A stretch of 64,000 bases of DNA from Bacteroidota bacterium. Lineage in GTDB: Bacteria > Bacteroidota > Bacteroidia > J057 > JAJTIE01. Where the stretch lies: NCBI GenBank assembly GCA_021300195.1, contig JAJTIE010000030.1:1-64000 (forward strand). The letters run 5' to 3'. Below the pieces are notes generated by a model. That model saw nothing but the letters and a program-made list of their open reading frames with translations, had not been told where the DNA came from and did not search any database. This document shows positions 34,001 to 50,854 of this stretch, one piece after another (positions within the stretch are counted from its first letter, which is position 1; each line of letters begins with the position of its first letter). A program made the position numbers and the translations under genes.

Positions 34001-37000
34001 TGGGCAGATCCCGTTGCTCACCGTCCAGCGCAGCTCAATGGTTTTGCCTCCGTCCAAAGCATCCGAGCGGTAGCGCGCTTGAGGGTCATTGGGTGCCGCG
34101 CCACCAGCCGAATCTACAAAGCTGCCAGCCACCGGCACATTGGTAATGGCCTCTACAGCCGTCCAGGTTCCGGTCCCCAAGGATGCGGTCGCGTTCAGAG
34201 GCGGCGTCTCCGATCCAGCACAGATGGGATCCTGTGGGGTATTAAAGACGCCCACCGGGGGCTGCACCATATTCAGGGTGATGGTCAGAGTTTCGGGGGT
34301 GCAGGGGGCTGACTCGGTTATCCAGTACAGCTGCACGGTGGTACCGGCATCTACTGGGCCCGGCACATAGCGCACCTGATTGGGGGTAGCGGTAGCTACA
34401 AAGCCCCCCCCGCCCACTGCGGGCGAACTGGAGGCCCAGCGGCCACTAAAGCCCGTCACCACAGTGCCCGTCAGTATGGGGGTAGTGGCACCAGCCTCAA
34501 AGCAGATGTCGGCTAGGGTGGTGGGCGTAACGGTGCCCGAAGGAATGGGTGCAACAACAAGCTCCTGGCTAAACGCCGCCAAACCGCACGGACCAGGGCC
34601 GGGGGAGGCCTCCACCGTCCATACCAGCTGCACGGTGCCCGAGCTACCCACAGGCGGCGTGTAGGTGGCATTGGGGGTGTTTACTGAGGGCGAGAAAGTA
34701 CCCCCGAAAGCAGCAGGACTTACACTCCAGGTACCCTGAAAGCCCGGGCCCGCCATAGCACCCAGACCTGCCGTAGCTGTATTGACGCATATGGCCTGAG
34801 GTGCCGTGCTAAAACTTCCGTCTATCACGTCTGCGGAAACAAAAAACTCATCGGTAGCGGTGGTACAACCGCAGCTAGGCTGACATACCTCATACTCCAC
34901 TTGCACAAATTTTCCGGCATCTGCTGCCACCGACACATACCGGGCATCCGGGCCCGTGCCACCATTGGGGCCAACGAAAACACCCTGGCCTGTATAGTTG
35001 CCTGCCGTATTGAGTATGGTACGCCAGGTTCGGGTTACCGGGGGCACGTTGCCCGTATTGGTAAGGTTGGTACCGGTAACATTAAAGGGGTCGGTGGTAC
35101 CATTCACACAAATATTGGGCACTGCTGCTATGCCGGTAATAGCAGGGTCATCGCCTATCTGTACCACTCGGTCTACCGTCTGGGGTGTGCAGGGTGGATT
35201 GGCGGTGGTAAAGCGGATCACAACCTCTTGTGCGTCATTGCCCGCACCATCCACCGGGGGGGTGTATAGGCCAGTGCTGGTAATGCTGCCGCCCCCCGAT
35301 ACAAGAGAAAAACTACCCGTACCGTCTACAGCCACGCCCGAGAACTGCACTGCCGCACTGCCCGCACAGATGGGGTTGGGCTGATCAAAGGTGCCAAAGG
35401 GGTCTTCGTTTACGGTAATAGGGCGGGTAATGACCAGGTTATTGCAGCCCGCAGTAGCAACCGTGTAGGTAATGGTAATGGGTAGTCCCCCATCCGAGTT
35501 TACCGACTGATAAAAGGTGCCTGCACCTGTGGCAACAATGCTGCCATTGCCGTTCTCCAAATACGCTTCGGTTCCGCCGCTGGTTGTCGTTCCATTAAGG
35601 GGACCAATCAGGGCTCCGGCACAGTATGGGCCGGGCGACAGGGTGAAGCTGCCATTCACCACCTGTGGCAGTATGGTTACATCCTGCTCATAGGGTACGG
35701 AGCTACAGCTACCGTTGGTAACCGTCCAGCGCAGTGTGCGGGTTGTACCCGCGTGCGTGGGAAGCGAGAGGTAGACAGCATTGGGGTCCAAGGCCGGATT
35801 GGCAGCATATATTGGATTCGTTGTTACAAAGGTGCCGGCTGCACCCGGACTCACATCGGTCCATACCCCGGTGCCGTGTATAGCCGTGACACCCAAGCTG
35901 CCGGTGCTGCCCCCCCCACAGATGGGGGCAGGTGCGGTGGCAAACGTACCCTCGGAGGTGTGGTCGATGGTGATCTGCCGCTCCAGCAGCAGGGCATCAC
36001 AGCTGCCGGAGGTAACCAGGTAGTAGAGGGTTACGGTCTGCTGAGAGCCTGCTATAACCCCCACATCGGTGGTAAAAGTCGCATTGGGGTCTGCCTCGGC
36101 GCTAAAGTCGCCATAGGGGCTGTCCAGCCAGAAACCATTGCCTGCCGTCAGGGTGCCACCCAGTGCAGGCGTGGTGCTACCTTCGCAGAGGGTTATCGCC
36201 GTATTTGCCATGGTAGCTACTGGCACGGGGGCCCGCGCGACAAACACCACATCGCCAATGGCGGTGCTACAGACCTCTTGGATGAGCACCCGGAAATACG
36301 CATCGGCCGTAATGGCACCCGTTGTGTAGGTAGAGGTACCGGCTGCAGTGTTGTTTACCACTGTTCCATTGTTTGGGTAGGCACCACCGCCTGTGGCGGC
36401 CGTCCAGCCCGAGGTTCCGTCGGCCGAGGTCTGCCAGGTGATGGTGGTGCCCGTACTCAGGGTGCCGGTATACAGCAGGCTGGCCGTGGTGCCCTGGCAG
36501 TAGTCACCGCTGCCTACAGTGAGGCCGCGCTCAGGTGCCGGGCCTACGGTTAGCGCGAAAGAGGCATTGGATACATCCGTGCAGGTGCCGTTCAGGTCTC
36601 CGGCCACGGCGCGGTAGTAGTAGGTGCCCAGCGCCGTGAGCGGTAAAGTTATCAGGGTGGCAGACTGTGCTCCCTCGTCAATGAACTGCCAATTAGCATC
36701 GCCGGCGATGGTGGGGGGATTGGTGGTCAGGTTGACTGTACCGACGAAATTAGTCGTGGTCGTGCTCTGCATCCAGTACAGCTTTTCGCCCACAAAGTCG
36801 TCTATCACCACCGTGGCTGTGTTTCCGATACACACATTAGCTGTGGAGGAAGCCGGTACATAGTTCCCCACTACGGCATCGCATAGGTTCAGGTTTACAA
36901 ACACGGTATCCGTGTTCACACATCCATCAAGACTCGTAGCCCTTACCACAATGGTGTCTCGGAAGTTTGCACTGCTGACCGGCGGTAGGCCAAAATCGAT

Positions 37001-39082
37001 CTGAAAGCCTGCGGCAGCCGGGTCTGCATCGTTCAGGGCCTCGGGTGCAGCGTTGCCCTTGCGCCGCTGCCAGTCCAGTCCCGCACCATCGGGGTTAGTT
37101 GCCGTATACGTACGGCGCGTTGTGCCAGCATTGGGTATCACCACGGTTACCGGGCCTGCCAGGTCTATCCTGGGCAGCGGGTTTACAGTAACCGACACAG
37201 CTGGGGTGGTAGTGGAGCTACAGCCGTTTCCGGCATCCGTGTTCGTAACGCGCACGCTGTAGTCTCCTGTTTGGGTAGCGCGGTAGGTATCATTGGTGGC
37301 ACCGGCTATTGTGCCCCCATTCAGCAGCCACTGGTAAGCAGGAGCTGCGCCGCCACCGGCATTCAGGGTGGCTGTTAGCTCAACCCACTGGCCAGCGCAC
37401 ACTGCAGCCGGATTCAGGGGAGCCACAGACACCGAGGGCTGAGGCCGCACCGTAATGTCAAAGAGATCCACACACAGGCCCGGTGTAATTGCCTGTACCT
37501 GGTCCGTCAGATCAGCGATCGTGATATTCTGGCCCGGGTAATACAGTACAGCCGGCTGGTCAACTACGTCGAACGTTGCGGGTGTGTTGAAGTAGCCACC
37601 CGAGTTATTTGCGGCAAAGCTCCAGTCGGTGCCTGCCACGCCCGTGCTAAGTAGATAGGGCCCAGACTCTGGGCAGATGCCACCCACAGTGGCATTGTTG
37701 AAATCCTGAATGGGCTGAAAAGCCAGCACCGTGATCAATAGGGTATCGGAACAGCCATTGGCGGTGGCTATCAGCGTATCTACCCGATCTGCGGGAGTAG
37801 GGCCAAAATTCACGGTAACATCGGTTACACCATTTTGTGTACCCGTACCCGTTCCGGCAAACACCGAGGCTGTGCCGATGGCCGGGCTTATAATCCTCCA
37901 GTTGCTGGCCGCTGCAACCGTAAAGTCTTCGCTGGTAGCACCACAGGCCTGATCTACGCCTACAATATCCACCACAGGCCGAGCCTCGAAGTAGAAGGTG
38001 GTAGAGCCGCCACAGGCAGCGGGATCCTGGAGGGTAATGGTCTTAACACCGGATGCAACCGTAGCATCAAACTCCACGGTGAGTGTAGAAGCATTGTTAG
38101 TCGTCGTAATGGCCGTTACATTGTCGGCTGGCAGCGTCCAGTTTACGGGCCGATTAGCCACCAGGGTAATGCGCGTGCCGTCGCAGGCTATGTAGGGAGC
38201 TGCCACCGTAGTGGCGCCATAGGGGGCATTCAGGCTAAGGGGCGGATTGGGCAGCACATCTACCTCCAGCACATCGGTACAGCTGCCCAGGGTAAACCGC
38301 ACCTGAACGGTCTGGCTGCTAGTAATGGCGGCGGCGTTCAGGTTCAGGGTTACCTGATTCGAAGCCAGAAGCGTACCGGCCAGCTGCCCCACTGTGGAGC
38401 CTGACAGGATAGTCCAGTCTCCGGCGGCATTGCCATTGAGCACAATACCAGTAGTGCCCGCACAGTAGAAAGGATCCAGAGCTGCCGCCGGGGTGATGCG
38501 AGCACCCGCAAAAATGGAGACGGGGTCTACAAAGTTGGCATTGGGCTTTATGTTTGCCAGACCAATGGGGGAGATGACCAGCGGGAAAGCCGTGATGGAG
38601 GTAATGTTTCCAGTAGTGGTTTCCCATTCCAGGTTTATGTTGTCGGTGCAGGCGGTGGCTTTTACGGTGGCGAAGATGCGGGCAATGCGCTGCTTGGTAC
38701 CGTCTACCACGGGTGCTGCATTGGTAATACCGGGCTCGGGGGACACAGTCAGGTTCAGGATGTTCCGCGCCGGGTTGGTACCCAGAAGAACATCCTGGTA
38801 GTGTCCGGCGGCGGCGGCAGAGAATACACCTTGGGTTTCGATACCGAAGTTGACGCCACTCAGGTCGAGCACATTGGGGTCTATACGCAATACGAAGTTG
38901 GAGGGGCCCAGGTAAAAATTGGCCCCAGACGTGCGCTCAATAGATACGTCGATCCACACCCGGTTCCCTACCTGCCGGCTTAGCTCCGCCGTAAGATTAT
39001 AATTATCCTGTGCATAGGCCCGGCTACCAAGTACGGAAACACTCAGCCCAAGAGCAAGGAAAAGAAACGACAGGTACCTCAT
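31055..39082 (-). CDS. Giant SprB-like repeat adhesin, T9SS type B sorting domain
   Basis: 2,675 residues. Signal peptide (MRYLSFLFLALGLSVSVLGS...AYAQ), then a ~170-residue beta-sandwich module (~27-192, ending NANFVDPVSIF) related to that in the gene at 41793. About eight Ig-like units (~205-950) follow, then roughly 13 tandem ~95-residue repeats (~950-2185), then Ig/PKD-like units. The end is the type B sorting domain (~2588-2675: FPTAFSPNKDDMNDLF, RWGNMIFETD, GWDGND, GTYTYKA). Each array repeat has an ICxG motif and a W(T/R)V(S/E)NGxC motif, with two Cys likely in a disulfide. Exported by T9SS to the surface with help of the adjacent SprF-like protein; likely adhesion or gliding. Confidence 0.93.
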   Translation of the reverse strand: MRYLSFLFLALGLSVSVLGSRAYAQDNYNLTAELSRQVGNRVWIDVSIERTSGANFYLGPSNFVLRIDPNVLDLSGVNFGIETQGVFSAAAAGHYQDVLLGTNPARNILNLTVSPEPGITNAAPVVDGTKQRIARIFATVKATACTDNINLEWETTTGNITSITAFPLVISPIGLANIKPNANFVDPVSIFAGARITPAAALDPFYCAGTTGIVLNGNAAGDWTILSGSTVGQLAGTLLASNQVTLNLNAAAITSSQTVQVRFTLGSCTDVLEVDVLPNPPLSLNAPYGATTVAAPYIACDGTRITLVANRPVNWTLPADNVTAITTTNNASTLTVEFDATVASGVKTITLQDPAACGGSTTFYFEARPVVDIVGVDQACGATSEDFTVAAASNWRIISPAIGTASVFAGTGTGTQNGVTDVTVNFGPTPADRVDTLIATANGCSDTLLITVLAFQPIQDFNNATVGGICPESGPYLLSTGVAGTDWSFAANNSGGYFNTPATFDVVDQPAVLYYPGQNITIADLTDQVQAITPGLCVDLFDITVRPQPSVSVAPLNPAAVCAGQWVELTATLNAGGGAAPAYQWLLNGGTIAGATNDTYRATQTGDYSVRVTNTDAGNGCSSTTTPAVSVTVNPLPRIDLAGPVTVVIPNAGTTRRTYTATNPDGAGLDWQRRKGNAAPEALNDADPAAAGFQIDFGLPPVSSANFRDTIVVRATSLDGCVNTDTVFVNLNLCDAVVGNYVPASSTANVCIGNTATVVIDDFVGEKLYWMQSTTTTNFVGTVNLTTNPPTIAGDANWQFIDEGAQSATLITLPLTALGTYYYRAVAGDLNGTCTDVSNASFALTVGPAPERGLTVGSGDYCQGTTASLLYTGTLSTGTTITWQTSADGTSGWTAATGGGAYPNNGTVVNNTAAGTSTYTTGAITADAYFRVLIQEVCSTAIGDVVFVARAPVPVATMANTAITLCEGSTTPALGGTLTAGNGFWLDSPYGDFSAEADPNATFTTDVGVIAGSQQTVTLYYLVTSGSCDALLLERQITIDHTSEGTFATAPAPICGGGSTGSLGVTAIHGTGVWTDVSPGAAGTFVTTNPIYAANPALDPNAVYLSLPTHAGTTRTLRWTVTNGSCSSVPYEQDVTILPQVVNGSFTLSPGPYCAGALIGPLNGTTTSGGTEAYLENGNGSIVATGAGTFYQSVNSDGGLPITITYTVATAGCNNLVITRPITVNEDPFGTFDQPNPICAGSAAVQFSGVAVDGTGSFSLVSGGGSITSTGLYTPPVDGAGNDAQEVVIRFTTANPPCTPQTVDRVVQIGDDPAITGIAAVPNICVNGTTDPFNVTGTNLTNTGNVPPVTRTWRTILNTAGNYTGQGVFVGPNGGTGPDARYVSVAADAGKFVQVEYEVCQPSCGCTTATDEFFVSADVIDGSFSTAPQAICVNTATAGLGAMAGPGFQGTWSVSPAAFGGTFSPSVNTPNATYTPPVGSSGTVQLVWTVEASPGPGPCGLAAFSQELVVAPIPSGTVTPTTLADICFEAGATTPILTGTVVTGFSGRWASSSPAVGGGGFVATATPNQVRYVPGPVDAGTTVQLYWITESAPCTPETLTITLNMVQPPVGVFNTPQDPICAGSETPPLNATASLGTGTWTAVEAITNVPVAGSFVDSAGGAAPNDPQARYRSDALDGGKTIELRWTVSNGICPADVNTRFVSVLNTALNGTFDALAQTTICETDVLNLVATVGPSGSIGTWSVDPAGYGTFAQSVFNATGSATAGNTTFTPVLPANSTGLVPVNISWTVENGACSEFSITRQLNISNTPAGGFSTNLFSVCAGYSTSLLVPFVTDGTGYWSCTNCSAGSAASFLPNVNTQNAQFQSTLADAGQQVTVIWNVQSDAACATIPYSQLLQVDVPPNGDAGPAIAPVCVGELSAMLAGSGNTPIAQQVGTGQWSCVGCSGGFTSPTSNPNARFIPVQGDGGTNVALRWTLSNGECPDVSYTKNIIVDALPEGTFTTPIPTICPGDPTISLGASITTLGATGLWSTNGGGTFVDPITFLPDPTDPLARYQSVPSDDLTNVVLTWRVSNGSCDPVDYTQALPKFKLPEGGFSLFTPITICANSSTSTLPAFLGAGATGGRWFTTNGTGQFLPSPTTAGASYHSTNADAATGTIHLTWRVGNGNCISDSVDFTQSIVVSGVAVAGISTPASPSVTICQEDSLRITAVGLPGSGFSWTTSDPTRFQIESTTSSESKIIVYPNASQQFEVTISDPSGCVIVDNIVVNVIPPNPIAISATTTSICPGEVLQLTLSQSPAGPLTDVVWSPTPFDVSDPLNPIVRPLANTNYLVRATTSNGCRNTASITINVAPFTNPRFDLVNRDVCGTFEDYFLTTDPTTMASCQTRTWYRNTLEEVQTGTSLNPLLSNSTAARDTVPFPITTLGRFNYVVACTDPATGCEILVEDSIWAAPTPTAGFYAYPKVQEEEEGIPPIIPRGQARLPISPIYAPDIQIVSAFRTNVTNVQAGFDSDSLSVLWYVGDTLQRGGEFISNELNPLITYGRTGKFTIFQIITELVPRGLGAPLQSCEDILIRQDYVEIREEEYVFPTAFSPNKDDMNDLFRPLPLTGQPTVEYIRIFDRWGNMIFETDRRTGWDGNDSSGRPFDPGTYTYKAKINRENRAPILYEGAVTLIR
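32530..36235 (-). repeat. Array of ~13 adhesin repeats (~95 residues each)
   Basis: Within the giant adhesin gene. Each unit has the order G(S/T)F, I/VC(A/E/P)G, L..., GTGxW, F, xxNAxYxS, DAGxxVxLxW and NGxC. The copies are well diverged at DNA level, so this is an old array and not a recent amplification. Boundaries are approximate. Confidence 0.75.
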
Positions 39083-39242: not shown

Positions 39243-41759
39243 CTATGGCACCCGTGTTATTTGTAGGGAGAAGTTATTTGTCCGGGTCCGGTTCAAGTCC
39301 GTAGCATTTACGTTTCCATCCAGATTCGCATCCTCCTGGATGTACACGTTTGCGGGGATACTGTTGTTTTGCACATAGCAGTTAAAGTAGTCGGCTGCAT
39401 TTACGGCACCTACATCCTGGAAACTGGGCAAGTCTACATTATTGCCTGCAAACATGGCCGCTACCACATAGCTGGGCCCATTTGCTACCAGGTGCCCATT
39501 GGTTTCTCCGGACACGGTGAAGATGCTGATTGGATTCGTCAGATCCAGCAGCGGGGGGCTCGCTGCCGTAGAGACAGCATAGGGCTGGGCAGACATGATA
39601 GCCAGGTGATTGCGGTGGCTTACCACCACGTAGTAGTTCCCTGCCGCTGCCAGGCCGCAAAAGTCGACCCCGGCTCTGCTCGCCGTGGCAAAGTCTACCA
39701 CCGTACCATCGGCCCGCAGCCACGCATAGGCTTCGTCAGCCACCACTGGCGCGGCCGTGGCATCGCTGCGGAGCGATACCTTGATCAGATCTACCACATC
39801 ATTGATGGGCAGGTTGCTTATAGCCATATTCGACCCGGGTGGGTTCATAAATCCGGTAGGATCTACGGCAGCTGTACCCAGGCCAAAGATGTCCTCCAGC
39901 AGGTCCTCCACACCATCCCCATCATTTCCATTGTTTAGCCTTGCCCGCATCTCGGGCACCGCACCCGACACATTGAGGGGGCCTTCCAGCATCACCTTCA
40001 GGGCCAGCCGGTATGCAGGAGTGGCCGTTATGGGAACCGTATTGCCCATGGGAGCAGTGCAGGTGGCATTCTGGGCCACGATGCGGAAGGTAAGGGAGCC
40101 TGTAGTGGGGGGCAGGAAACCGAAGGTGAGCGCTCCGCCGGTACCGGCGGTAGTGGTTCCGGCTATGGGGTTAGCGCCGTACCATACTGTATAGTCATAG
40201 CCCGCCTGCGAAGATGCCAGCTGCAGCACCACCGGCTCGCCCGTGCAGTAGGGGCCAGCGATCTGCTCGGTTACGGCGTAGGGCTCGGGACCGATGAACG
40301 TGATCTTGATGGTATCGCGTATCACGCAGCCATTAACGGTGACAGAAAATTCGAGGCTATCGGCCCTAGGGGTGGGTGTAAGGATGGTGGCCGTATAGGT
40401 GGGTGTAAGACTGGTGGCGCTGTTTACCGAGGCACCGGGCGAAATAGGAGTCCAGGTGGGATTGATATAGCCCGCCGGGGGGGTGGGCGCAGTAAGTTGT
40501 ACGCTGGGCTCGCATAGGTCTGGTATATTGGCCATGGGCGTCTGGAAGAAGTAGAAGGTGCCTACCACACTGTCTTTCAGCTGAGCGCCCGAGCAGAGCA
40601 CGGTATTGTTGGATGTCCAGAAAAACTTGTAGACACCCGGCACGGATACCCTTACGCGTGCGGTAGGGCTGGTGTTATCGTTAAACTGCGCCGAACCGGG
40701 GTTGGATGCATGGGCGGACCAGGTGCCACCGCCCACTGTAGTGGCATCCTCGGCGGCCAGGGTCCGGGTGCGGGTATTGCAGGCGGTGAAGTTGGGCCCG
40801 GCATCCAGGTTTACCACCGTGGCGGTAAAGGAGCGCTCATACACGCAGTTGTTCCCTGTGGTAGTAACCCGCCAGGTCAGCACATTCTGGTTCGTCGCGG
40901 TTGTCCCCAGGTTTCGGGCTACCGCATTGTGCACATTGGCCGATGGGGTGAAGGTAACCACGGTGGGGTTATCGCTTATCCACTGGCCTGTGGCCCCCGG
41001 GCCTGCGGGGGCGGCAGCCAGCTGCAGGGTATCGGTATTGCACACCGTTATGTCCGAGCCAGCATTGCGCACCAGCTCCAGGCTCAGCGGGGTGGTCAGG
41101 TTGGTGCGGGCTACTACATAGGTGTAGTTCACGGCCGTGGGCCCGGGCGGGTGGTTAAAGTTGCGCGAGCGGGTGATGGGGAAATCGCAGTCTCCATCAT
41201 TCAGATCCTGCCAGGTGCAGATGATGCCCTGTTGATTGCCAGCAGTTACGAAAAAGGTGGGTAACAGGTCATCCATGCACTGGCCTGCCCCTATGCGCAG
41301 GGCCAGGGCCACCAGCTGCCGCTTCACGGTGCCGTCCGGGGTACCGGTAGCATCAAAGGGGAAGGGGCTGTTCAGCACGGTCCCGGGTGCACTGCGCGTA
41401 ATGGAAATATTGATACGGGGGTGCGCGGCGTTTCCACCATACTGTGCACCAATAGGTGCATAGTCTCCGCTGCTAAACTGAGTAGGCGAGCTGGGATGGA
41501 TGCCAATCGTACTGCCAATGGCCGGCGAACCCAAGTCAATCCTATCATCTGCCGATAGACTAAAAGGGATGTCGGCGGCACCCAGTTGTAGCGCATTAGT
41601 GGGGTGCCGGTTCTCCAGATACACCCGCATGATAACCGTATCGCCATTGCCACGCTCCAGGGTGTAGCTCAGTTCATAGTCCACATCGTAGGGTAGCACC
41701 TGGGCACGTACCGAGAGCCCCAGTAGGAGAGCAAGACTGCAAAAAATAAGCCGCTTCAC
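39243..41759 (-). CDS. Secreted surface protein with Ig-like repeats and dockerin-like C-terminus
   Basis: 838 residues. Signal peptide MKRLIFCSLALLLGLSVRAQ. An N-terminal beta-rich module (~23-195) is similar in layout to those of the adjacent proteins. Ig-like repeats with paired Cys follow (~235-580). A module at ~583-750 (LALKVMLEGPLN, DVVDLIKVSLR, YYVVVSHRNHLAIMSA) is shared with the gene at 43996. The last ~60 residues hold two F-hand-like units: DVGAVNAADYFNCYVQNN (degenerate) and DANLDGNVNATDLNRTRTNN (complete). I see no type A or B T9SS sorting domain, so export beyond the periplasm may use this region or a partner. Co-transcribed with the two upstream genes. Confidence 0.85.
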   Translation of the reverse strand: MKRLIFCSLALLLGLSVRAQVLPYDVDYELSYTLERGNGDTVIMRVYLENRHPTNALQLGAADIPFSLSADDRIDLGSPAIGSTIGIHPSSPTQFSSGDYAPIGAQYGGNAAHPRINISITRSAPGTVLNSPFPFDATGTPDGTVKRQLVALALRIGAGQCMDDLLPTFFVTAGNQQGIICTWQDLNDGDCDFPITRSRNFNHPPGPTAVNYTYVVARTNLTTPLSLELVRNAGSDITVCNTDTLQLAAAPAGPGATGQWISDNPTVVTFTPSANVHNAVARNLGTTATNQNVLTWRVTTTGNNCVYERSFTATVVNLDAGPNFTACNTRTRTLAAEDATTVGGGTWSAHASNPGSAQFNDNTSPTARVRVSVPGVYKFFWTSNNTVLCSGAQLKDSVVGTFYFFQTPMANIPDLCEPSVQLTAPTPPAGYINPTWTPISPGASVNSATSLTPTYTATILTPTPRADSLEFSVTVNGCVIRDTIKITFIGPEPYAVTEQIAGPYCTGEPVVLQLASSQAGYDYTVWYGANPIAGTTTAGTGGALTFGFLPPTTGSLTFRIVAQNATCTAPMGNTVPITATPAYRLALKVMLEGPLNVSGAVPEMRARLNNGNDGDGVEDLLEDIFGLGTAAVDPTGFMNPPGSNMAISNLPINDVVDLIKVSLRSDATAAPVVADEAYAWLRADGTVVDFATASRAGVDFCGLAAAGNYYVVVSHRNHLAIMSAQPYAVSTAASPPLLDLTNPISIFTVSGETNGHLVANGPSYVVAAMFAGNNVDLPSFQDVGAVNAADYFNCYVQNNSIPANVYIQEDANLDGNVNATDLNRTRTNNFSLQITRVP

Positions 41760-41792
41760 AATTTTGATGCTTGGGGTACGGATTAAGCGGGA

Positions 41793-43985
41793 CTATCGGG
41801 TCAGCTCGATGATCTTGCGGGTATAGGTTATGCCATCCAAGCGGACAGACAGGGTGTAGGTGCCGATGCCCTGCACCTCCGAGCCAAAGGGAAAGCTGTG
41901 AGCACCGGGCTCTAGGGGTCCATCTTGCAGGGCTGCCACGCGCTGGCCCACCATATTCAGCACCTCTATCACCACATAGGTAGTGCGCTCCAGCTGGCAG
42001 TGTATGGCTGTCCGGCCAGCGTAGGGGTTGGGATATACATTCAGGCTAAAGCCGCGCTGTGGGTCTACCACACTGGTTACCTGGTAGTCAACAGGCTCGG
42101 AGGTGGCCGCTCCGCACTCGTTTTCCACACGCACGGTATACAGGCCGGGGCCGGGTGTCTCCAGGGTTTTTTGGATAGCCCCGGGTATGGGTGCCCCATC
42201 GCGGTACCACTGCAGGCTGTCGGTCATATCGGCTACCAGGGTATTTCCATTTATTAAAATAACCGGCTGCGAAACGGCAGGCTGCATCTCCAGCAGAATG
42301 GCTGCCGATGGGGCCGAGCGGCACACACCGTCCAGGTATCGGGCTGTGTAGGCACCAGAGGCTGTGGCCACCAGCTCGCTACCCGTTTCGCTCAGCTCCA
42401 CATTGTCTCGGTACCACGCATGCGTGCCCACCAGGCTGGAGAGGATCAGCACCTGGTCTCCCTCGCACACCACCGTATTGGCCGACGTACTTAGTACCGG
42501 GCTGGGTATCACCCGCTCGGCCAGGGTAATGGCTGCGGAGGGGGCCGACAGGCAGCTACCCTGCTTCATGGCGGCGGTGTAGCTACCGGGCTGGGTAGCC
42601 TGGTAGGTAGGGCCATTGGCACCGGGTATGGAGACGCCCGACCGGTACCACACATGCTCGCCGGGCTGATCTGAGCTGAGTGATACGGCTTCGCCCAGGC
42701 AGATCTCGGTACTGGCCTGGCCTAGCAGTGGCTGCTGCACACTGGCGGGCAGGATGGTAACCGTGGCGGGCACAACCCCACAAGTGGAGTGGGCCATGGC
42801 GCGGTATTCGCCGGCCTGGCTGGTGGTAACGCTAGCACCACCGGTCTGGATAAGGTTGTTGTTGAGATACCAGTCGTGGTCGCCCACATAATTGGATGTG
42901 ATGGTAATCGATCCGCCCGCGCACAGGTAGTTGCCCCCCTGGCCGGCAATAAGCGGGGAGATAATGGGTGTTACATTCACCGCCACGGCAGCCGAAAGGC
43001 TGCTGAGGCAGCTGGGGCCTTCCCTGCGCGCGGTGTAAGAACCCGTTTCGGTAACCGTGAGGCTAGGTTGCGCCTGGCCAGTTAGCAGGTTGCCATCCCG
43101 GTACCACACATGTGCACCGCTGAGGTTGGACTGTAGCACCACCTGGTCGCCCGCGCAGATGGACGTGGCGGTAGCCGCCGTAACCACTGGGGCCGTGGCA
43201 TCGAAGTTGGCCAGTGTAAACACCTCCGACACCTCGGAGGCGCAGCTGTGAAACTTGGATATGGCCGTGTAGTTGCCGGCCTGGCTGGCCACCAGGGTGC
43301 TGGTGTTCTGGCCAGTAATTAGGCTTCCATCCCGGTACCACTCGGTTACACCCGCATAGCCTGTGGAGAGGGTAACCTCGCCACCCGGGCAGAGCACCCC
43401 GGAGCCGGAAACAATCTGGGGACGGGCGGGTGTGGAGCACAGCGGAAAATTGGGGGCAGGATCTACGAAGTTTGCATGGTCCTGTATCTCGCTCAGGTCC
43501 CAGGCCGTAATTGCTATGGGGCCAGTCCGCCAAGTCAAGGTGTTGAAGCCAGCAGGATCCACAATGGGAACCACCAGGCGGCCCACCCGGGTGCGGGTGT
43601 CGGGGATGGCGTAGCCCTCGGTAGCGGTACCCGATTTGCTATTGATATTGAGCACCAGGTAGTTGCTTCCGCGCCCGGTGCTTAGATCGAAATAGTGTAC
43701 CGGCCGTGTTTGCACATCCCACGGGCCATCCTGGCTATGGTCTATGTACGAGCCCCCCAGGTTCAGCGCAGTGGGGGTCATGAAGAAAGAAAAGTTGCTG
43801 GAGGCAAGGGCATAGCTGGGCCCATCTGTGCGCTGCAAGTACACATCCACCAGCAGATTACTGCCCGAAACCTGCTGCTCTACCTCTACGTCGAAATGGT
43901 AGGGCTGGGCAGTTCCCACTGCAAACAGTAGGATACACGACAGAAAAAGAGCGGCAAGGTGCTTAATGCGTAGTAGTGTGGCCAT
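41793..43985 (-). CDS. Secreted Ig-repeat protein with T9SS type A sorting domain
   Basis: 730 residues. Signal peptide ending GTAQ. N-terminal cohesin-like beta module (~28-180, ending HANFVDPAPNF). Six Ig-like repeats (~188-636) each read (S/V)xICxG...L, WYRDG, G.YTA and SCxSxxSAA. The type A sorting domain is at ~645-730 (GFSLNVYPNPYAGRTAI, VLNMVGQRVAAL, GTYTLSVRLDGITYTRKI). The mature protein is expected at the surface, anchored or released after cleavage by the PorU sortase. 33 bases separate it from the gene at 41759. Confidence 0.9.
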   Translation of the reverse strand: MATLLRIKHLAALFLSCILLFAVGTAQPYHFDVEVEQQVSGSNLLVDVYLQRTDGPSYALASSNFSFFMTPTALNLGGSYIDHSQDGPWDVQTRPVHYFDLSTGRGSNYLVLNINSKSGTATEGYAIPDTRTRVGRLVVPIVDPAGFNTLTWRTGPIAITAWDLSEIQDHANFVDPAPNFPLCSTPARPQIVSGSGVLCPGGEVTLSTGYAGVTEWYRDGSLITGQNTSTLVASQAGNYTAISKFHSCASEVSEVFTLANFDATAPVVTAATATSICAGDQVVLQSNLSGAHVWYRDGNLLTGQAQPSLTVTETGSYTARREGPSCLSSLSAAVAVNVTPIISPLIAGQGGNYLCAGGSITITSNYVGDHDWYLNNNLIQTGGASVTTSQAGEYRAMAHSTCGVVPATVTILPASVQQPLLGQASTEICLGEAVSLSSDQPGEHVWYRSGVSIPGANGPTYQATQPGSYTAAMKQGSCLSAPSAAITLAERVIPSPVLSTSANTVVCEGDQVLILSSLVGTHAWYRDNVELSETGSELVATASGAYTARYLDGVCRSAPSAAILLEMQPAVSQPVILINGNTLVADMTDSLQWYRDGAPIPGAIQKTLETPGPGLYTVRVENECGAATSEPVDYQVTSVVDPQRGFSLNVYPNPYAGRTAIHCQLERTTYVVIEVLNMVGQRVAALQDGPLEPGAHSFPFGSEVQGIGTYTLSVRLDGITYTRKIIELTR
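42078..43424 (-). repeat. Six ~75-residue Ig-like repeats
   Basis: Within the 730-residue protein. Each unit has ICxGxxVxL, xHVWYRDGxxL, a Gly-x-Tyr-Thr strand and a closing SCxSxxSAA. The last copy is the most diverged (SLQWYRDGAPIPGA). Boundaries approximate. Confidence 0.75.
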
Positions 43986-43995
43986 GCGGTTAGCT

Positions 43996-45933
43996 TTAGT
44001 TCGGGATGTTGGTTACTTTCAGTTGAAAAGCATTTCTTTCTACCTGATTTCTATCCGTTGCGTTAACAAGCGCATCCATCGACAGATCCAGCCTACGGTA
44101 TCTTGCATCGGCGGGCAGTGCGTTGTTCTCGATGATGACTACGAATCGGTCTGCCGAGTTGACCGCCCCCACATCCCCAAATGCGAGGTTGTCTACCGCA
44201 TTTCCGGCCAAGAGGGCGGCTTTGTTATCTGCAGTAAACAGGCGCACGTATTCGGCATCCACGGTGCCAGGAAGGGTAAAATCTACGAGGTTGCCAGGCT
44301 CATACGTGCCTGCAGAGATAGCCCCCAGGTGGTTTCGGTGGCGCACCGCCACCCGGTACTCCGTGTCGGGTGTTGGCACGAAACCACAAAAGGCTACGTC
44401 ACCAGCCAGGCCATTTACAAAGGGCCGGGTAGACCCATCGGGCATCAGCCAGGCCAGAGATTCCGAGATCATAGCAGTACCTCCGGCATCCCAGATCTCT
44501 ATCCTTACTACATCCACGGCATTTGCGGGCACATCCACGCTGCGGTACATCTTGGGGTAGTTGCCGCCCTGATCGCTGGCAACTGCCGGGAACCGCCTAC
44601 TGTAGACCGAATCCAGTAGGGAGTAGACCAGATTGGCCACCATTTTTCTGTCGTAGTAATCTTTACGCATGGTGCCACCAGCCTGGTACGCGCCCTCTAG
44701 CAGGAGTTTTACCTGCATCCGCGCAGCGGGCCGAATGGTAATATCCAGCCGGTCCGTGGTGTCGGCCCCACAGGCATTAGCTATGGTGGCTAGCGCCACG
44801 GCGTTCACAGCGGGGCTGAGGGTGCCAACGGTGTACAGCACGCGCGAGGTTTGGCCCGAGATGGCTGTGTAAGTAGTACCGCCGTCTGTAGACTGCAACC
44901 ACTGAAGACCCACAGCTGGGTCTACACCGCTCACGTTGGCCCGTATGCTGTCCAGCTCGCACACATCGGCTGGGGTTATCAGGCTGGGTAGCCCGGCATA
45001 GTAGGCACAGCGGCCCAGGGCAAAGTAGCCTAGGGTGCCATCTGCAACCGGGTCGCTCTTTACCGCGTAGATGACTGGCACACCCGTACCAATATCCACT
45101 CCGGCGTTGCCGATATCGCTCCAGGTGCCGTTAATAAGTGCTGCCGATCGGGCTACCCGCAGGTTTACGAGGTCTGCCTCATTAACCCCATACAGATTAG
45201 AAAAGCTGGGCATGATGCTGCCCATGGTGGTCAGGCTGCCGCGCAGCATTTTTCCGTACCAGACGTTTTCCTCGGGTTCTATTCTGCTGATTCCGTTGCC
45301 CCGGCTGCCGGATGGAACCGGTGTAGGCAGGGCCGCAAAAACCATGATGGGTGTGGGCCCTGCCGCGTAGCCTATGCCCTGCAGGGTCACCCGGTTGTGG
45401 TCATCACCATTTCCGATCCAAAAGGTCTTGCTGGCCGAGGCTGAGCCGGCAATGCCCAGCTGGCCGTCTACATAGCCGGTGGTGCCAAAGTCTTGCACGG
45501 CATTTTCGTGCAGAATCAGCAGGTTGCCGGGCAGGGTGGCGCGCACCCGCCTTCCACCTATACTCAGGGTGCCGGCAATGTACAGGGTATCGCCCACCTT
45601 CAGGTTCTGGCCATTGGTATACAGGGCCCCCAGGGTGTCTCGCTTGCCCGCCTTGTACAGGTGCTCGCTACTGCCTGTGTAGCGGATAACCGCATCGGCG
45701 GGCGCATTGTGGCGCTGGTCGCCATTGTTTTCAAAGCTATTCCGCAGCCGCAGCTCGCCTGCGTGCAAAAAGGTGGCACCAGCATTTACCACCACATCAC
45801 CGGACACGCTCAGCTGGGTACCATTGGTGAGGGCAAAGATCCCCCCCGCTACACGCAAGTCTGTCTGTGCAGAGAGGCAGAAAGGCAGCCCAAGCAGAAG
45901 AAGAAGAAAGGTATGGGGGAGGAAGCGCATCAT
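43996..45933 (-). CDS. Secreted surface protein with dockerin-like C-terminus (paralogue)
   Basis: 645 residues from ATG 45933 (MMRFLPHTFLLLLLGLPFCL); the 36 residues upstream are not coding-like. After the signal peptide there is a beta-helix-like stretch (~25-180). One Ig-like unit with paired Cys follows (~315-400), then the same C-terminal module as the gene at 39243 (MQVKLLLEGAYQ, DVVRIEIWDAGG, YRVAVRHRNHLGAISA). It ends with two F-hand-like units, DVGAVNSADRFVVIIENN and DLSMDALVNATDRNQVERN; the second has lost the consensus Asp-x-Asp-Gly pattern. No T9SS sorting domain recognised. First gene of the surface-protein series. Confidence 0.85.
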   Translation of the reverse strand: MMRFLPHTFLLLLLGLPFCLSAQTDLRVAGGIFALTNGTQLSVSGDVVVNAGATFLHAGELRLRNSFENNGDQRHNAPADAVIRYTGSSEHLYKAGKRDTLGALYTNGQNLKVGDTLYIAGTLSIGGRRVRATLPGNLLILHENAVQDFGTTGYVDGQLGIAGSASASKTFWIGNGDDHNRVTLQGIGYAAGPTPIMVFAALPTPVPSGSRGNGISRIEPEENVWYGKMLRGSLTTMGSIMPSFSNLYGVNEADLVNLRVARSAALINGTWSDIGNAGVDIGTGVPVIYAVKSDPVADGTLGYFALGRCAYYAGLPSLITPADVCELDSIRANVSGVDPAVGLQWLQSTDGGTTYTAISGQTSRVLYTVGTLSPAVNAVALATIANACGADTTDRLDITIRPAARMQVKLLLEGAYQAGGTMRKDYYDRKMVANLVYSLLDSVYSRRFPAVASDQGGNYPKMYRSVDVPANAVDVVRIEIWDAGGTAMISESLAWLMPDGSTRPFVNGLAGDVAFCGFVPTPDTEYRVAVRHRNHLGAISAGTYEPGNLVDFTLPGTVDAEYVRLFTADNKAALLAGNAVDNLAFGDVGAVNSADRFVVIIENNALPADARYRRLDLSMDALVNATDRNQVERNAFQLKVTNIPN

Positions 45934-46153: not shown

Positions 46154-49100
46154 CTATTTCGCCTTTAGCAGCAGCTTTTGCCCCACCTTCAGCTCGTTGG
46201 AGGTAAGCCTGTTTAGCGCCTTCAGCTCAGATACGTCCATGCCATACTTCCGCGCGATGATGAAGAGCGACTCGCCCTCCTGCACGCGGTGGAAGCGGGG
46301 CCTGCGCTCGTACTGCCGAACGGGGTCTAGCCGGTCTTTCGATTCCAGTTCTTCCTCTGTGTCTAGCAGGGTGCCATCCAGGTTATCCTTCACATCGGCA
46401 TTGGGCTCCAGGCTCAGGTCTTCCTGTAGGAAGAAGAAGTCTTTCTCGGTTTGTGTCAGGTCTCGCTTCTTCAGGTTCTTGCGTACATAGTCTAGCAGTT
46501 CCTGGCGGTCTGGCAGCACCTTGTACACCTGTATGGAGAATCTGGGGTCGCGCGGGAAGCGCGAGACGGACATGGCAATCTTGCTGCCATCGGGGCTAAA
46601 CACGGCGTAGTAGCCATTAGCATCATGGCCGTCGTAGGTGGCCAGGTGCACGTAGCTGCGGGCATCCCACAGGCGGGCGGTATGGTCGTCGCTGCTGGTA
46701 AGGATATGCTTGCCGGTGCTGCTGAACTCGGCATGGTACACCGGCCCGCCATGTGCCCCCACCCCTTTCAGCTCACCCAGCATCTTGCCGTTGGCCGTAC
46801 TCCACACTTTCGAGCTGAAGTCGGTGCTGCTGGTTACCACCTTCTTATTGTCGGCACTGAAGGCGGCGTGCAGCACAGCGGCCTCGTGCCCCTTCAGCCT
46901 ACTGCGGATGTTGCCATTCACGCCGTCCCAGATGATGGCGGTTTTATCTTCGGACGTAGTTACCACCATACTGCCGTCGGGGCTGAAGGTGGCAAAGGTA
47001 ACGGGGCTGCCGTGGCCCCTCATATCGGCCAGCAGGGTTCCACCCTCGGCTTCCCACAGCTTCACCATCCCATCTGCCCCGGTGGTTACCAGGCGGGTAC
47101 CCTGGGGGTTGAAGGCTACATGCAGCACAGCCTCTGTGTGGCCCTGTAGCACGGCTATGCGTCCGCCATTCTCGCCGAAGAGGAGAGCCGTTTTATCCTT
47201 GCTGGCAGTAGCTACCCGGCGGCCATCCGCCGATAGGGCTGCGGAGGTAAGCAGATCCGCATGTCCGCGGAATACGGCCACTTCTCTGCCCGCCTCCAGT
47301 GCCCACAGGCGGGCGGTGAAGTCCTCGGCCAGGGTAACCACCTGGCGGCCGTCGCGGCTAAACACGGCATTGTCTACAATATGGGTGTGCTTATAGTAGG
47401 TGGTTTTCAGCTTGTTGGTACTCAGGTCCCACAGGCGGGCGGTTTTATCCATGCTTGTGGTAATCAGGTACTTGCCGTCGGGGCTAAACTGGTTGTACAC
47501 CACCTTATTCGTGTGGCCCAGCAGCATGTTTTCGGGCCGATCGCGGTTGTTCATCATCCGGTCGGCCGCGTTGTACAGGGCTCCCTCTGCCTCTGCCACA
47601 TAGGGTCTGCTGTCCTTGCCGCCTATGGTTTCGGGCATGGCGCGCAGGGCTATCAGCAGCCCCAGTTCATACTGGCCCTGCTGCACCTGTTCTTCGGTCA
47701 GGTTAGCCAGGAAGCGGCTCTGGTTTTCCTGAGCGCTGTTTCGCTGTACACGGGCCTCCTCCAGGGCCTCCTCGGCCTTTCGGCGTTGCAGCTCGGCTAT
47801 CTCGGTTTGCTCCTGGGCTACGCGTGCGCTCTCTTCGGCTTCCTTCTTGCGCAGTAGGGCTATGCGTGCGTTTTCTTCTGCCAGGGCTTTCTGCTTCTCC
47901 GCGTAGCGCTTGCGTTCTTCTGCCGTTATGCGTTCGCGGCGCGCTACCTTTTCTTGCATTTTGGCTTGCAGCAGGTTTATCTCGGCTATCAGCGTTTGTC
48001 GGTCGGCCTTGGCGCGCTGTAGCTCGGCCAGGGTTTTCTGGCGTTCGGCCTCTTTCCGCTGGTTGTCGACCTCTGTTTTTTGGGCAATAGCCAGTTGTTC
48101 TTTCTCCTTGGCTATCTCGGCCTGCTGTAGGGCAAAGATGGTCATGGCTATGGCTGCCAGCAGCAGGGCCAGGATGACGACCAGGGCAAAGATGGCGGCC
48201 CTGCGCTGCCGTTCCAGCTTTTCCTGGCTTAGCAGCAGGAACTCGTCCAGATCCTCCAGATAGAGCTCGGCCTGCTCGGTCACATCCATCTCCGGCAGGA
48301 TCTCCTCCGGTGCTATGTAGCGGCGTATCCAGGCCGTGGTGGGCCGGGTATCCTCATACCAGGTGCTGAAGTAGCTGTAGGTGCCTCGGTTCAGCAGGTA
48401 CTTGGGCCGGCAGTCGTGGTCTAGCCAGCGGTTTAGCTGCACCTTTACATCGGCATAGGTAGCCACGCGCTTATGCTCGCGCTCTGCCCATTCTATCAGT
48501 TTGTCCCAGTTTCGTATCAGGGCCTCGTGGGTAATGTCTAGCACCACGCTGGGGGCCAGGTCATAGGGCTCGGGCTTTTCGGGGTCTATGTAGGGCTGGA
48601 TAAAGGTATTGCCCGGCTCGCGGAAGATGTTGAGCACCCGGCCCACCTTCAGGTAGTCTACCTCATCGTTGCCAATCAGGTCTGCAATCTCCTCCAGGGT
48701 CATGCGGTTCCGCACGGCCCGGTTTTCGTCTATCTTGGTCAGGCCGGTAAAGGCATAGCGGATGACCTCCTGTGCTTCCTCTTTGGTAATCTTGTCGTCG
48801 TGGCGTGCATTGTAGTACTCGTGCGCCACGGCATACAGCAGGTTGGCATGCCGGTTCAGGATGTTGCGCAGGGCAGGCTTGGCATACAGCTCGCGTGTTT
48901 CTTCGTTCAGCTTGCTAAACCAACGCTGATAGTCTTCTACCTCGGCCCTGGGCAGCTTCAGCTCTGCCAGGCCGCCCACCTTGGCATAGTGTATCAGGTC
49001 CAGCTCTTCCTTGCCCGCGTCTGCCTGCGTCCATATCTGGTGCAGGGCGTGCTGTAGCACCGGCAGCTGGTCCAGGCCGTCGCCCAGGTCATTCAGTATA

Positions 49101-50854
49101 CGCTGGCTCAGGCGCACGCTCAGCCTATTGCCATTCAGGTATGCGGGCGCATCTATTACCTCCTGTATCTCTTCGCGCTTTAGCCTGGGCACAAAGTAGG
49201 TGGCATTGCCAATCAACTCGGCAAAGCCGCGAAATGCCACGCACTGGCCGATGAAGTCGGACCGCATGGTGAAGACCACATAGACAGGCAGCCCCTCCTG
49301 GCGGGCTATGCGGATAGTCTCCAGCAGTACGTTTACTGTAATCTGGGCTGTGGGGCTAGCCACACCATCGCGGTAGTTCTCGGTATTGGTAAAGAATTCC
49401 TCAAACTGGTCTACCAGTATCAGCAGGTTGGCCGCCTGGCGGCGCATCATTTTTCGGGTCTCCTCATCGCCCTCCAGATACTCATTGCTGGTAACGTCGC
49501 AGTACAGGTCGCTTTTTTTGTACAGGTCCACTAGGGCCGAGAAGCCGTAGCTCAGGGCACTCTCCACCTCGTCGGGGTTGCGCAGGCGCAGTTCTTTGCC
49601 GATGGCGATGCTGAGGTTTCGCAGGGGCTGCCGCTCGGGCCGGAAGTCGGCCACCGCCCACTTGCTAAAGCTGGTAGACAGGAAGCCCCCCTTGAGGCTG
49701 GGAACCAGGCCGGCAAAAATGAGCGAGGATTTCCCGTCGCCAGAGGAGCCGGTTACCATCACAAACTTCTCCTCGCCCAGCATGCGCAGGATGGTGTCTA
49801 CGTGCCTTTCGCGCCCTTTGAAGAAGATGGATTCATCTTCGTTGAACGGGCGCAGGCCGGTGTAGGGGCAAAAACTGGTTTCGGTAATGCGGCCGGTTTC
49901 GGCCACCCGGGCGTGCACGGTGGTAATGGCCGACAGCAGGTTGCGCTTCTTAACCACCTCCAGCAATATCTGCGGTGCACGAAAGCGCAAGAAGCGGTTT
50001 CGGCGCGGCTCATCTTCGCCAATCAGAAGGAAGGGATTGTTTGACGAGGCACCGCCTACCACCTTCCACATCTGTTTCACAAAGCTGATGGCCCAGTCTG
50101 AAGACTCTTTGAAGTAGATGACTGTAAGGCGTGAACGGATGATCCGGCCCTGGGCTTCTTCCTTGTAATCCACCTCCGACTCTGGCACCACCGTTAGCGT
50201 AGTAACCCGCAGGCTCTCGCTCAGCTTCTCTATCGTCTCGTAGCAGTCTGCCGCATCCTGTATGTTGCTGATGAAGGCGAGGTCGTACTCTTTTTTGATG
50301 ACCTCCTTCTGGCCGATGCGCTCCAGAAAGCCCTTGAGGTCCTGAATGAAATCGGAGGCAGAATTGACATTGGAGAACATCATGTCCTCCGTCAGGTGGT
50401 TCTGGATAAAGTTGACCAGCTCCTGCTGCTCGCCTAGCAGCAGCAGCCCCTCCAGGGGCAGCTGCCAGAAAAACACCTTGAAGCTGCCGCCCGTCATGCG
50501 AGACTGGCCGATGGCTACCTCGTACTGGTATCGGGTGTGGCTTACGCTAGAGTCTGCATGCAGGGTACGGCCATACTCGCCGCCTAGCATGATGACGGCA
50601 AAGTCGGCCCGGCGCACATAGGCCTCCGTCTTGTCGCGCAGCTCCTGGTCGGTCTCATAGCGCTCATCCAGGGCCAGCACCTCATAGCCCGCTTTTTGCA
50701 ACATAATGCCAAAGTCGGCCCGGCGCGCCCCTATGTCCTCGGTGGTCCAGGCCAGGAAGACCACGGGCTTTTTGGCCTGGCCCCGGGCCTCTGCCCCCTG
50801 TGCCTGGCTGGCACCAGCCTGGTCGTTTACGAGAATAGATTCCGGATCATTCAT
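46154..50854 (-). CDS. Membrane STAND NTPase: TIR/DUF4062-like N-terminus, nSTAND1, coiled coil, WD40, LysM
   Basis: 1,566 residues. Residues ~30-118 form a DUF4062/TIR-like Rossmann fold (VVFLAWTTEDIGARRADFGI) and ~188-300 look like a second such fold. A linker YTGLRPFNEDESIFFKGRER leads to an nSTAND1-type NTPase (~325-790): Walker A GSSGDGKSS 369-377, Walker B LILVDQFEEFF 478-488. One transmembrane helix at ~886-909, then a long charged coiled coil (~910-1045), eight WD40 repeats (~1110-1446) and a LysM domain (~1521-1565: FHRVQEGESLFIIARKYGMD). With a single membrane crossing, WD40 and LysM would be on the opposite side from the NTPase, probably periplasmic. Family: STAND proteins are ligand-triggered switches, many antiviral. 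Single gene with its own terminator. Confidence 0.88.
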   Translation of the reverse strand: MNDPESILVNDQAGASQAQGAEARGQAKKPVVFLAWTTEDIGARRADFGIMLQKAGYEVLALDERYETDQELRDKTEAYVRRADFAVIMLGGEYGRTLHADSSVSHTRYQYEVAIGQSRMTGGSFKVFFWQLPLEGLLLLGEQQELVNFIQNHLTEDMMFSNVNSASDFIQDLKGFLERIGQKEVIKKEYDLAFISNIQDAADCYETIEKLSESLRVTTLTVVPESEVDYKEEAQGRIIRSRLTVIYFKESSDWAISFVKQMWKVVGGASSNNPFLLIGEDEPRRNRFLRFRAPQILLEVVKKRNLLSAITTVHARVAETGRITETSFCPYTGLRPFNEDESIFFKGRERHVDTILRMLGEEKFVMVTGSSGDGKSSLIFAGLVPSLKGGFLSTSFSKWAVADFRPERQPLRNLSIAIGKELRLRNPDEVESALSYGFSALVDLYKKSDLYCDVTSNEYLEGDEETRKMMRRQAANLLILVDQFEEFFTNTENYRDGVASPTAQITVNVLLETIRIARQEGLPVYVVFTMRSDFIGQCVAFRGFAELIGNATYFVPRLKREEIQEVIDAPAYLNGNRLSVRLSQRILNDLGDGLDQLPVLQHALHQIWTQADAGKEELDLIHYAKVGGLAELKLPRAEVEDYQRWFSKLNEETRELYAKPALRNILNRHANLLYAVAHEYYNARHDDKITKEEAQEVIRYAFTGLTKIDENRAVRNRMTLEEIADLIGNDEVDYLKVGRVLNIFREPGNTFIQPYIDPEKPEPYDLAPSVVLDITHEALIRNWDKLIEWAEREHKRVATYADVKVQLNRWLDHDCRPKYLLNRGTYSYFSTWYEDTRPTTAWIRRYIAPEEILPEMDVTEQAELYLEDLDEFLLLSQEKLERQRRAAIFALVVILALLLAAIAMTIFALQQAEIAKEKEQLAIAQKTEVDNQRKEAERQKTLAELQRAKADRQTLIAEINLLQAKMQEKVARRERITAEERKRYAEKQKALAEENARIALLRKKEAEESARVAQEQTEIAELQRRKAEEALEEARVQRNSAQENQSRFLANLTEEQVQQGQYELGLLIALRAMPETIGGKDSRPYVAEAEGALYNAADRMMNNRDRPENMLLGHTNKVVYNQFSPDGKYLITTSMDKTARLWDLSTNKLKTTYYKHTHIVDNAVFSRDGRQVVTLAEDFTARLWALEAGREVAVFRGHADLLTSAALSADGRRVATASKDKTALLFGENGGRIAVLQGHTEAVLHVAFNPQGTRLVTTGADGMVKLWEAEGGTLLADMRGHGSPVTFATFSPDGSMVVTTSEDKTAIIWDGVNGNIRSRLKGHEAAVLHAAFSADNKKVVTSSTDFSSKVWSTANGKMLGELKGVGAHGGPVYHAEFSSTGKHILTSSDDHTARLWDARSYVHLATYDGHDANGYYAVFSPDGSKIAMSVSRFPRDPRFSIQVYKVLPDRQELLDYVRKNLKKRDLTQTEKDFFFLQEDLSLEPNADVKDNLDGTLLDTEEELESKDRLDPVRQYERRPRFHRVQEGESLFIIARKYGMDVSELKALNRLTSNELKVGQKLLLKAK

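Follow-up and report, generated by a model that had tools for sequence, protein, structure and literature searches.

X-dockerin-like and cohesin-like modules encoded by adjoining genes as a candidate means of holding proteins at the cell surface beside T9SS-sorted neighbors in Bacteroidota

Substrates of the T9SS are currently recognized by their sorting domains, and a group of adjoining genes in a Bacteroidota bacterium raises the question of how proteins that lack such a domain could be held at the cell surface beside neighbors that carry one. The genes lie in contig JAJTIE010000030.1, in a stretch of 64,000 nucleotides that was analyzed as a whole and is called the window below. Two of the encoded proteins end in an X-dockerin-like module (C-module), three begin with a cohesin-like module (N-module), and one carries both. 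We consider it likely that the anchorless proteins with a C-module dock onto T9SS-sorted neighbors with an N-module and are held at the cell surface in this way. The features of the locus are as follows.

43996-45933, minus strand: P0001, 645 aa, with a signal peptide (read by eye), an N-terminal part and a C-module at the C-terminus
43999-44730, minus strand: C-module of P0001, an X-like beta-sandwich plus F-hand-like units at 44122-44205 and 44053-44088
41793-43985, minus strand: P0002, 730 aa, with an N-module, Ig_7-like repeats and a T9SS type A sorting domain
43437-43907, minus strand: cohesin-like N-module of P0002 (model mb089c6f05c56)
41808-42038, minus strand: T9SS type A sorting domain of P0002 (residues 650-726)
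39243-41759, minus strand: P0003, 838 aa, GTG start, with a divergent N-module and a C-module in a single chain
41070-41690, minus strand: divergent N-module of P0003 (family model and tree)
39246-40019, minus strand: C-module of P0003, an X-dockerin-like dyad (model m037ff7db8e42)
39363-39446 and 39297-39332, minus strand: F-hand-like units of P0003, degenerate and complete, respectively
31055-39082, minus strand: P0004, 2675 aa, with an N-module, a long repeat region and a T9SS type B sorting domain
38501-39010, minus strand: cohesin-like N-module of P0004 (BLASTP and family model)
31058-31321, minus strand: T9SS type B sorting domain of P0004 (residues 2588-2675)
30024-31049, minus strand: PorP/SprF-family gene, adjoining the type B substrate P0004
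28428-29999, minus strand: PAS-SpoIIE phosphatase-type gene, after the PorP/SprF gene

The six genes follow each other nearly head to tail in the order P0001, P0002, P0003, P0004, PorP/SprF, PAS-SpoIIE, with intergenic gaps of 10, 33, 160, 5 and 24 bases by ORF coordinates. Judging by these short gaps, P0001-P0004 and the downstream genes are likely co-transcribed. P0001 gave no match in the NCBIfam and Pfam scans. Upstream of the group lies a gene for a 1566-aa protein (window 46154-50854) that combines an nSTAND1 NTPase with WD40 repeats and has a LysM domain at its C-terminus; a WD40-LysM gene also adjoins the operon of a relative, G019 (L044 15279-17000). In genome G018 a PAS-SpoIIE phosphatase-type gene (L051 13379-14911) likewise follows a PorP-like gene.

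The original prediction had noticed that two proteins end in pairs of F-hand-like units, and these were located in P0001 and P0003. The second unit is complete in P0003 (DANLDGNVNATDLNRTRTNN, with its 12-residue loop at 39297-39332 on the minus strand) and weaker in P0001 (DLSMDALVNATD, 44053-44088), and each is preceded by a degenerate first unit about 30 residues away (GNNVDLPSFQDVGAVNAADYF... and GNAVDNLAFGDVGAVNSADRF...). The C-terminal regions of the two proteins are homologous over about 250 residues with 35% identity (BLASTP 5e-30, over a stretch wider than this region), so the C-module is a larger unit, of which the F-hands are just the final quarter. Ahead of the F-hands, the module forms a beta-sandwich in which an HRNHL motif is conserved. 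P0001 and P0003 are the only two genes with a C-module in their own genome.

Both profile and fold searches returned dockerins as the best matches of the C-module, in line with what had been expected of it. The C-module family profile gave 40 matches among PDB sequences, most of them cellulosomal dockerin chains as judged by their names, with 2vn5_B first (E 4.1e-5) and the X-dockerin chain 2b59_B at 3.4e-4; the best match of a narrower family was 5k39_B (E 0.0021). The predicted structure of the P0003 C-module (pLDDT 82.7, pTM 0.85) has helices at 208-217 and 239-250, with the second loop complete and the first degenerate. Among the best 50 Foldseek matches listed for this model, 5k39_B and 4fl4_L have a probability of 1.00 and all others at most 0.35. 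In a second fold comparison the top eight PDB entries are type II X-dockerin dyads (Z 9.8-10.7; the ninth entry has Z 4.9), with 150-154 residues aligned at an rmsd of 3.8-4.3. The match spans both halves of the module, and therefore the C-module resembles a whole X-module plus dockerin more than a dockerin alone. Thus, the dockerin likeness first proposed was retained, the bare dockerin gave way to a whole X-dockerin-like dyad, and the predicted fold matches that of the clostridial type II X-dockerin dyad.

This likeness lies largely below the thresholds of the usual domain models. In standard family scans, none of the window proteins had a cohesin or dockerin match above cut-off. PF00404 (dockerin) has no match at the Pfam cut-off in P0001 and P0003, nor in the window's genome, and among relatives it matches weakly in 5 of 12 sequences and in 19 of the 111 C-module proteins; one relative's C-module (L092) passes the Dockerin_1 cut-off (25.8 bits against 22.9). 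Within their final 120 residues, 52/113 C-module ORFs show an F-hand pattern one or more times, compared with 0/113 shuffled sequences; across relatives, two or more loops were found by pattern in 22/113. Invariant residues of the module are kept across 12 and 49 sequences; the module alignment (A9) took 47 of 81 eligible C-modules.

The prediction had further held that the proteins encoded at 41793 and 31055, P0002 and P0004, begin with a similar module ending in ANFVDP. This was borne out by BLASTP (3e-13, 27% identity over 193 residues), and both modules end in that motif. The set was incomplete, as P0003 had been missed: it carries a divergent N-module in addition to its C-module, with an E-value of 2.3e-30 in a family model that contains P0003 itself, and in the tree this N-module falls together with that of the corresponding gene in a relative. 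These three are the only N-modules in the genome.

As had been proposed, a cohesin came first among the Foldseek matches of the N-module, and cohesins were favored over controls in profile comparison. The first Foldseek match of the P0002 N-module model is the cohesin 2ccl_A (E 6.4e-3, probability 1.00), closely followed by more cohesins and by CBM3 modules. In the second fold comparison cohesins and CBM3 are level at Z 7-8, where chance matches can also fall (6xx1_D Z 8.0, 4uyq_A Z 7.9). As a reference for profile comparison, 26 Pfam-defined cohesins from the phylum were used (26 of 30 cohesin loci, A10), and their profile itself matches PDB cohesins down to 1.5e-17. Aligned to it by hhalign, the wider N-module family scored 31.8 (E 7.5e-5 as one comparison). 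None of 150 column shuffles exceeded 14.0, the reversed profile reached 12.8, and three unrelated modules compared with the cohesins gave 10.6-13.5. The comparison covered cohesins, X-modules, sorting domains and Ig_7 repeats. Without the window rows the wider family still scored 29.0 (E 2.3e-4); the window's order-level family alone gave a weaker 21.4, where shuffled controls stayed at or below 15.8 and the reversed profile reached 17.7, and it matches the wider family with window rows removed at E 6.7e-14. At the level of sequence profiles, the N-module thus resembles the Pfam cohesins above controls. PF00963 (cohesin) has no match at its cut-off in the window proteins or in G000, and among 15 order-level N-modules it matches one (E 0.014). 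Among PDB sequences cohesins make up 6 of the 13 matches of the wider N-module profile, none with an E below 0.19; the other matches include maltose-binding proteins. The order-level profile gave a single weak and unrelated PDB match, which was set aside. The N-module alignment (A8) dropped 2 of 21 matches as short (L101, L121) and does not include the P0003 N-module.

The sorting domains divide along the same lines as the modules. P0002 has TIGR04183 (26.7 bits) and P0004 has TIGR04131 (42.8 bits), both above the NCBIfam cut-offs, and neither model matches P0001 or P0003, as had been claimed of the two proteins without a sorting domain. In the order, sorting domains were found in 7/7 of the scanned N-only proteins (one below cut-off) and in 0/3 of the scanned C-module proteins; with the window added, the counts are 9/9 and 0/5. 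Among 111 C-module proteins, scanned over their last 300 residues at most, none has TIGR04183 or TIGR04131 by NCBIfam. TIGR04183 was found in 21 of 24 partners, a list that is partly hand-picked (15 by profile and 9 chosen by position). Our own, less sensitive sorting-domain profile points in the same direction, more weakly: it matches 20/56 next-downstream genes, 7/36 upstream genes and 29/534 others, as well as 1/113 C-module genes and 11/17 N-only ORFs.

Scanning named genomes for the C-module gave 80 loci in Bacteroidota, Ignavibacteriota, Kapabacteria, Marinimicrobia and Cloacimonadota, together with a Rhodothermaceae record and Thiothrix. Over these loci a position-blind iterated N-module profile found 21 ORFs. 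An N-module occurs in 15/65 next-downstream genes, in 1/36 upstream genes and in 1/557 genes elsewhere (Fisher 2e-14, a value that overstates independence, since the loci are mutually related). These counts, like those from our own sorting-domain profile, use ORFs called mechanically with a minimum length of 110 aa, so that the class of other genes includes some false ones. Four of the 113 C-module ORFs bear both modules. The ordered module pair in other families and the F-hand pattern relative to shuffled sequences suggest more than chance.

Within the order, N-modules were found in 5 of 22 genomes, and the same five have the strongest C-modules. A similar layout recurs in them: a C-module gene comes first, an N-module gene bearing a sorting domain second and a dual gene third; a fourth gene, the N-module giant, is present in the window and in G019. 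The third gene is apparently split over two contigs in G003, and only the first gene pair was seen in G004. At the class level, 16 of 17 genomes with an N-module also have a C-module, which occurs in 42/295 genomes. The wider profiles find N-modules in 19/295 and C-modules in 37/295, and 16 of these 19 N-module genomes have a C-module by either C-module search. Among the matches listed for whole genomes of the class, 18/41 N-modules are found downstream of a C-module at a distance of no more than 300 bases (16 by the wider and 2 by the narrower C-module profile). Other arrangements include C, N+C, N+C, N (L106) and three C-module genes followed by two N-module genes with sorting domains (G079). 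One dual protein from Ignavibacteriae (L095) lies directly after another C-module gene, has a C-module at 1e-34 and falls just short of the Pfam Cohesin cut-off (E 6.1e-5, 23.7 bits against 24.1). In the module tree the N-modules of the second gene group across families (support 0.98) and the C-modules of the first gene do not, so that stable cognate pairs are borne out only in part.

Taken together, the arrangement of the genes and the way sorting domains are divided among them agree well with the surface-anchoring idea, and we infer assembly. The N-module protein with a T9SS sorting domain would be exported and anchored by the T9SS, and the C-module of an anchorless protein would dock onto the N-module of its anchored neighbor. 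In the window the side-by-side pairs would be P0001 with P0002 and P0003 with P0004, and the dual-module P0003 could link the docking steps into a chain. The two modules would bind each other, with a need for calcium, and the complex would be located at the surface. Against this reading we count the first F-hand, which is degenerate in both P0001 and P0003, the window modules' scores below the Pfam cut-offs, the tie of the N-module fold with CBM3, the weaker cohesin score of the order-level N-module family, the partners in Flavobacteria and Spirosoma without a profile link to cohesins, Foldseek E-values above 1e-3 for both modules, the middling confidence of the N-module model (pLDDT 72.7), the 50/65 next-downstream genes in which no N-module was detected, and genus g25, in whose genomes (7 to 10 or more C-modules scored each) no N-module was detected. 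A bolder version, which we put forward tentatively and think rather doubtful, is that in the periplasm dockerin-tagged proteins lacking a sorting domain bind a dedicated cohesin-like adaptor and pass through the T9SS together with it, that dual proteins chain adaptors into surface filaments, and that this is general in T9SS-bearing phyla. If so, the T9SS displays more than the known sorting domains indicate.

It seems unlikely to us that the C-module is instead a further T9SS secretion or sorting signal beside types A, B and C, which does not bind the N-module and is encoded next to it because the proteins are co-secreted. Such a signal would agree with the extreme C-terminal position of the module (over 111 closed ORFs, 0-85 residues separate the end of the match from the stop, median 10), with its replacement of the known sorting domains in all 111 tails, and with the NCBIfam 'choice-of-anchor' families, which have 5 + 1 + 1 = 7 matches among these tails and also fit an anchoring role. 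SprA is present in all 37 C-module genomes, though it is found in 286/295 genomes and is thus uninformative as a test of T9SS dependence. However, a sorting signal would leave unexplained why the next gene so often starts with a cohesin-like module; the C-module fold is that of the whole X-dockerin dyad, which binds cohesin in solved complexes, and the Thiothrix record also carries C-modules.

The N-module, in turn, might be a CBM3-like carbohydrate-binding or adhesive beta-sandwich acting on glycans, with the C-module binding something else. The tie between CBM3 and cohesins in the second fold comparison speaks for this, but Foldseek places a cohesin first, cohesins are the 6 of 13 PDB sequence matches noted above (all weak), and the profile comparison with cohesins exceeds its controls, in a set of cohesins, X-modules, sorting domains and Ig_7 repeats. 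This reading also leaves the gene-order link to dockerin-like modules unexplained; we think it quite improbable. Least credible, and in our estimate very improbable, is that the modules are relics whose folds were kept for stability without mutual binding, the proteins without a sorting domain being periplasmic or exported in vesicles. The degenerate first F-hands would agree with decay, but invariant residues are conserved over the 12 and 49 aligned sequences and the gene order is conserved over several phyla.

Returning to docking between neighbors, the nearest structural counterpart is the clostridial type II cohesin/X-dockerin pair (PDB 2b59, 5k39, 5m0y, 4u3s), with which the C-module shares the whole-dyad fold. 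In clostridial cellulosomes, likewise, the partner starts with a cohesin-like module and bears a cell-surface anchor. These partners use Gram-positive wall anchors, whereas T9SS sorting domains take their place here and the first F-hand is degenerate. Unlike a cellulosome, the window has no cellulases or scaffoldin: no catalytic domain was found, each protein has one N-module, and the partner is usually a single-module protein encoded next door. Non-cellulosomal cohesin-like modules (C. perfringens 2jh2 and 2w1n, archaeal 2xdh) are among the fold matches of the N-module; they are not known to be tied to the T9SS or to a neighboring X-dockerin gene.

The closest precedent is the set described in Ca. 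Stygibacter of the Cloacimonadota (Williams et al. 2021, PMC8542988), with dockerin-bearing enzymes and a cohesin scaffoldin that has a conserved C-terminal domain. There the dockerin and cohesin domains are annotated, the cohesins are in tandem and enzymes are present, whereas here we find divergent single modules below Pfam cut-offs, adjacent gene pairs and dual-module proteins in many lineages. The sorting domains of types A, B and C, named in a review of T9SS effectors (PMC10202324), resemble the C-module in having a fixed C-terminal position and in deciding surface fate. Types A and B occur on the N-module partners; in contrast to them, the C-module has about 200-260 residues, is X-dockerin-like and was not found together with type A or B. 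Apart from the Cloacimonadota report, the pairing was not described in the literature searched, which lay outside most subscription journals and preprints, so that earlier reports are possible; the available parts of PMC11557425 and PMC3534657 do not describe it.

If docking occurs as proposed, a large unlabeled set of secreted proteins in Bacteroidota and allied phyla would reach or stay at the surface via partners encoded next door, on a scale given by the 42/295 genomes of the class with C-modules, several of them with 7 to 10 or more. The partner pairs would then be predictable from sequence and testable pair by pair, the cohesin-dockerin principle would extend to general Gram-negative anchoring outside cellulose breakdown, and new natural pairs would become available for surface display.

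Several minor observations concern variants of the two modules in relatives. An 851-aa ORF in G255 (L199 5783-8335, minus strand) has three tandem N-modules and is scaffoldin-like; our own profile found no type A sorting domain in it, and its tail resembles that of a 524-aa ORF with one module in G301. In genus g25, G072 and G170, for example, have at least 10 C-modules each with a distinct last part, most matches ending at about model position 203-214. The Gammaproteobacteria record of Thiothrix, a chromosome (L152), has three C-module ORFs and lies outside the other phyla seen; these modules were possibly acquired by transfer. In Flavobacteria and Spirosoma the neighbors of C-module genes encode a signal peptide followed by about 160 residues and then a type A-like sorting domain (L116 10587-11429, L119 10680-11498, L125 14003-14887, L135 10661-11500 and L147 10829-11653). 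The idea that these partners are members of the same cohesin-like family was not supported, as they scored 11 to 19 against all profiles alike (cohesins, N-modules, X-modules, sorting domains and Ig repeats). Finally, six consecutive ORFs at L139 (5052-19367) have only the X-like half of the C-module at their ends, with the F-hand part absent.
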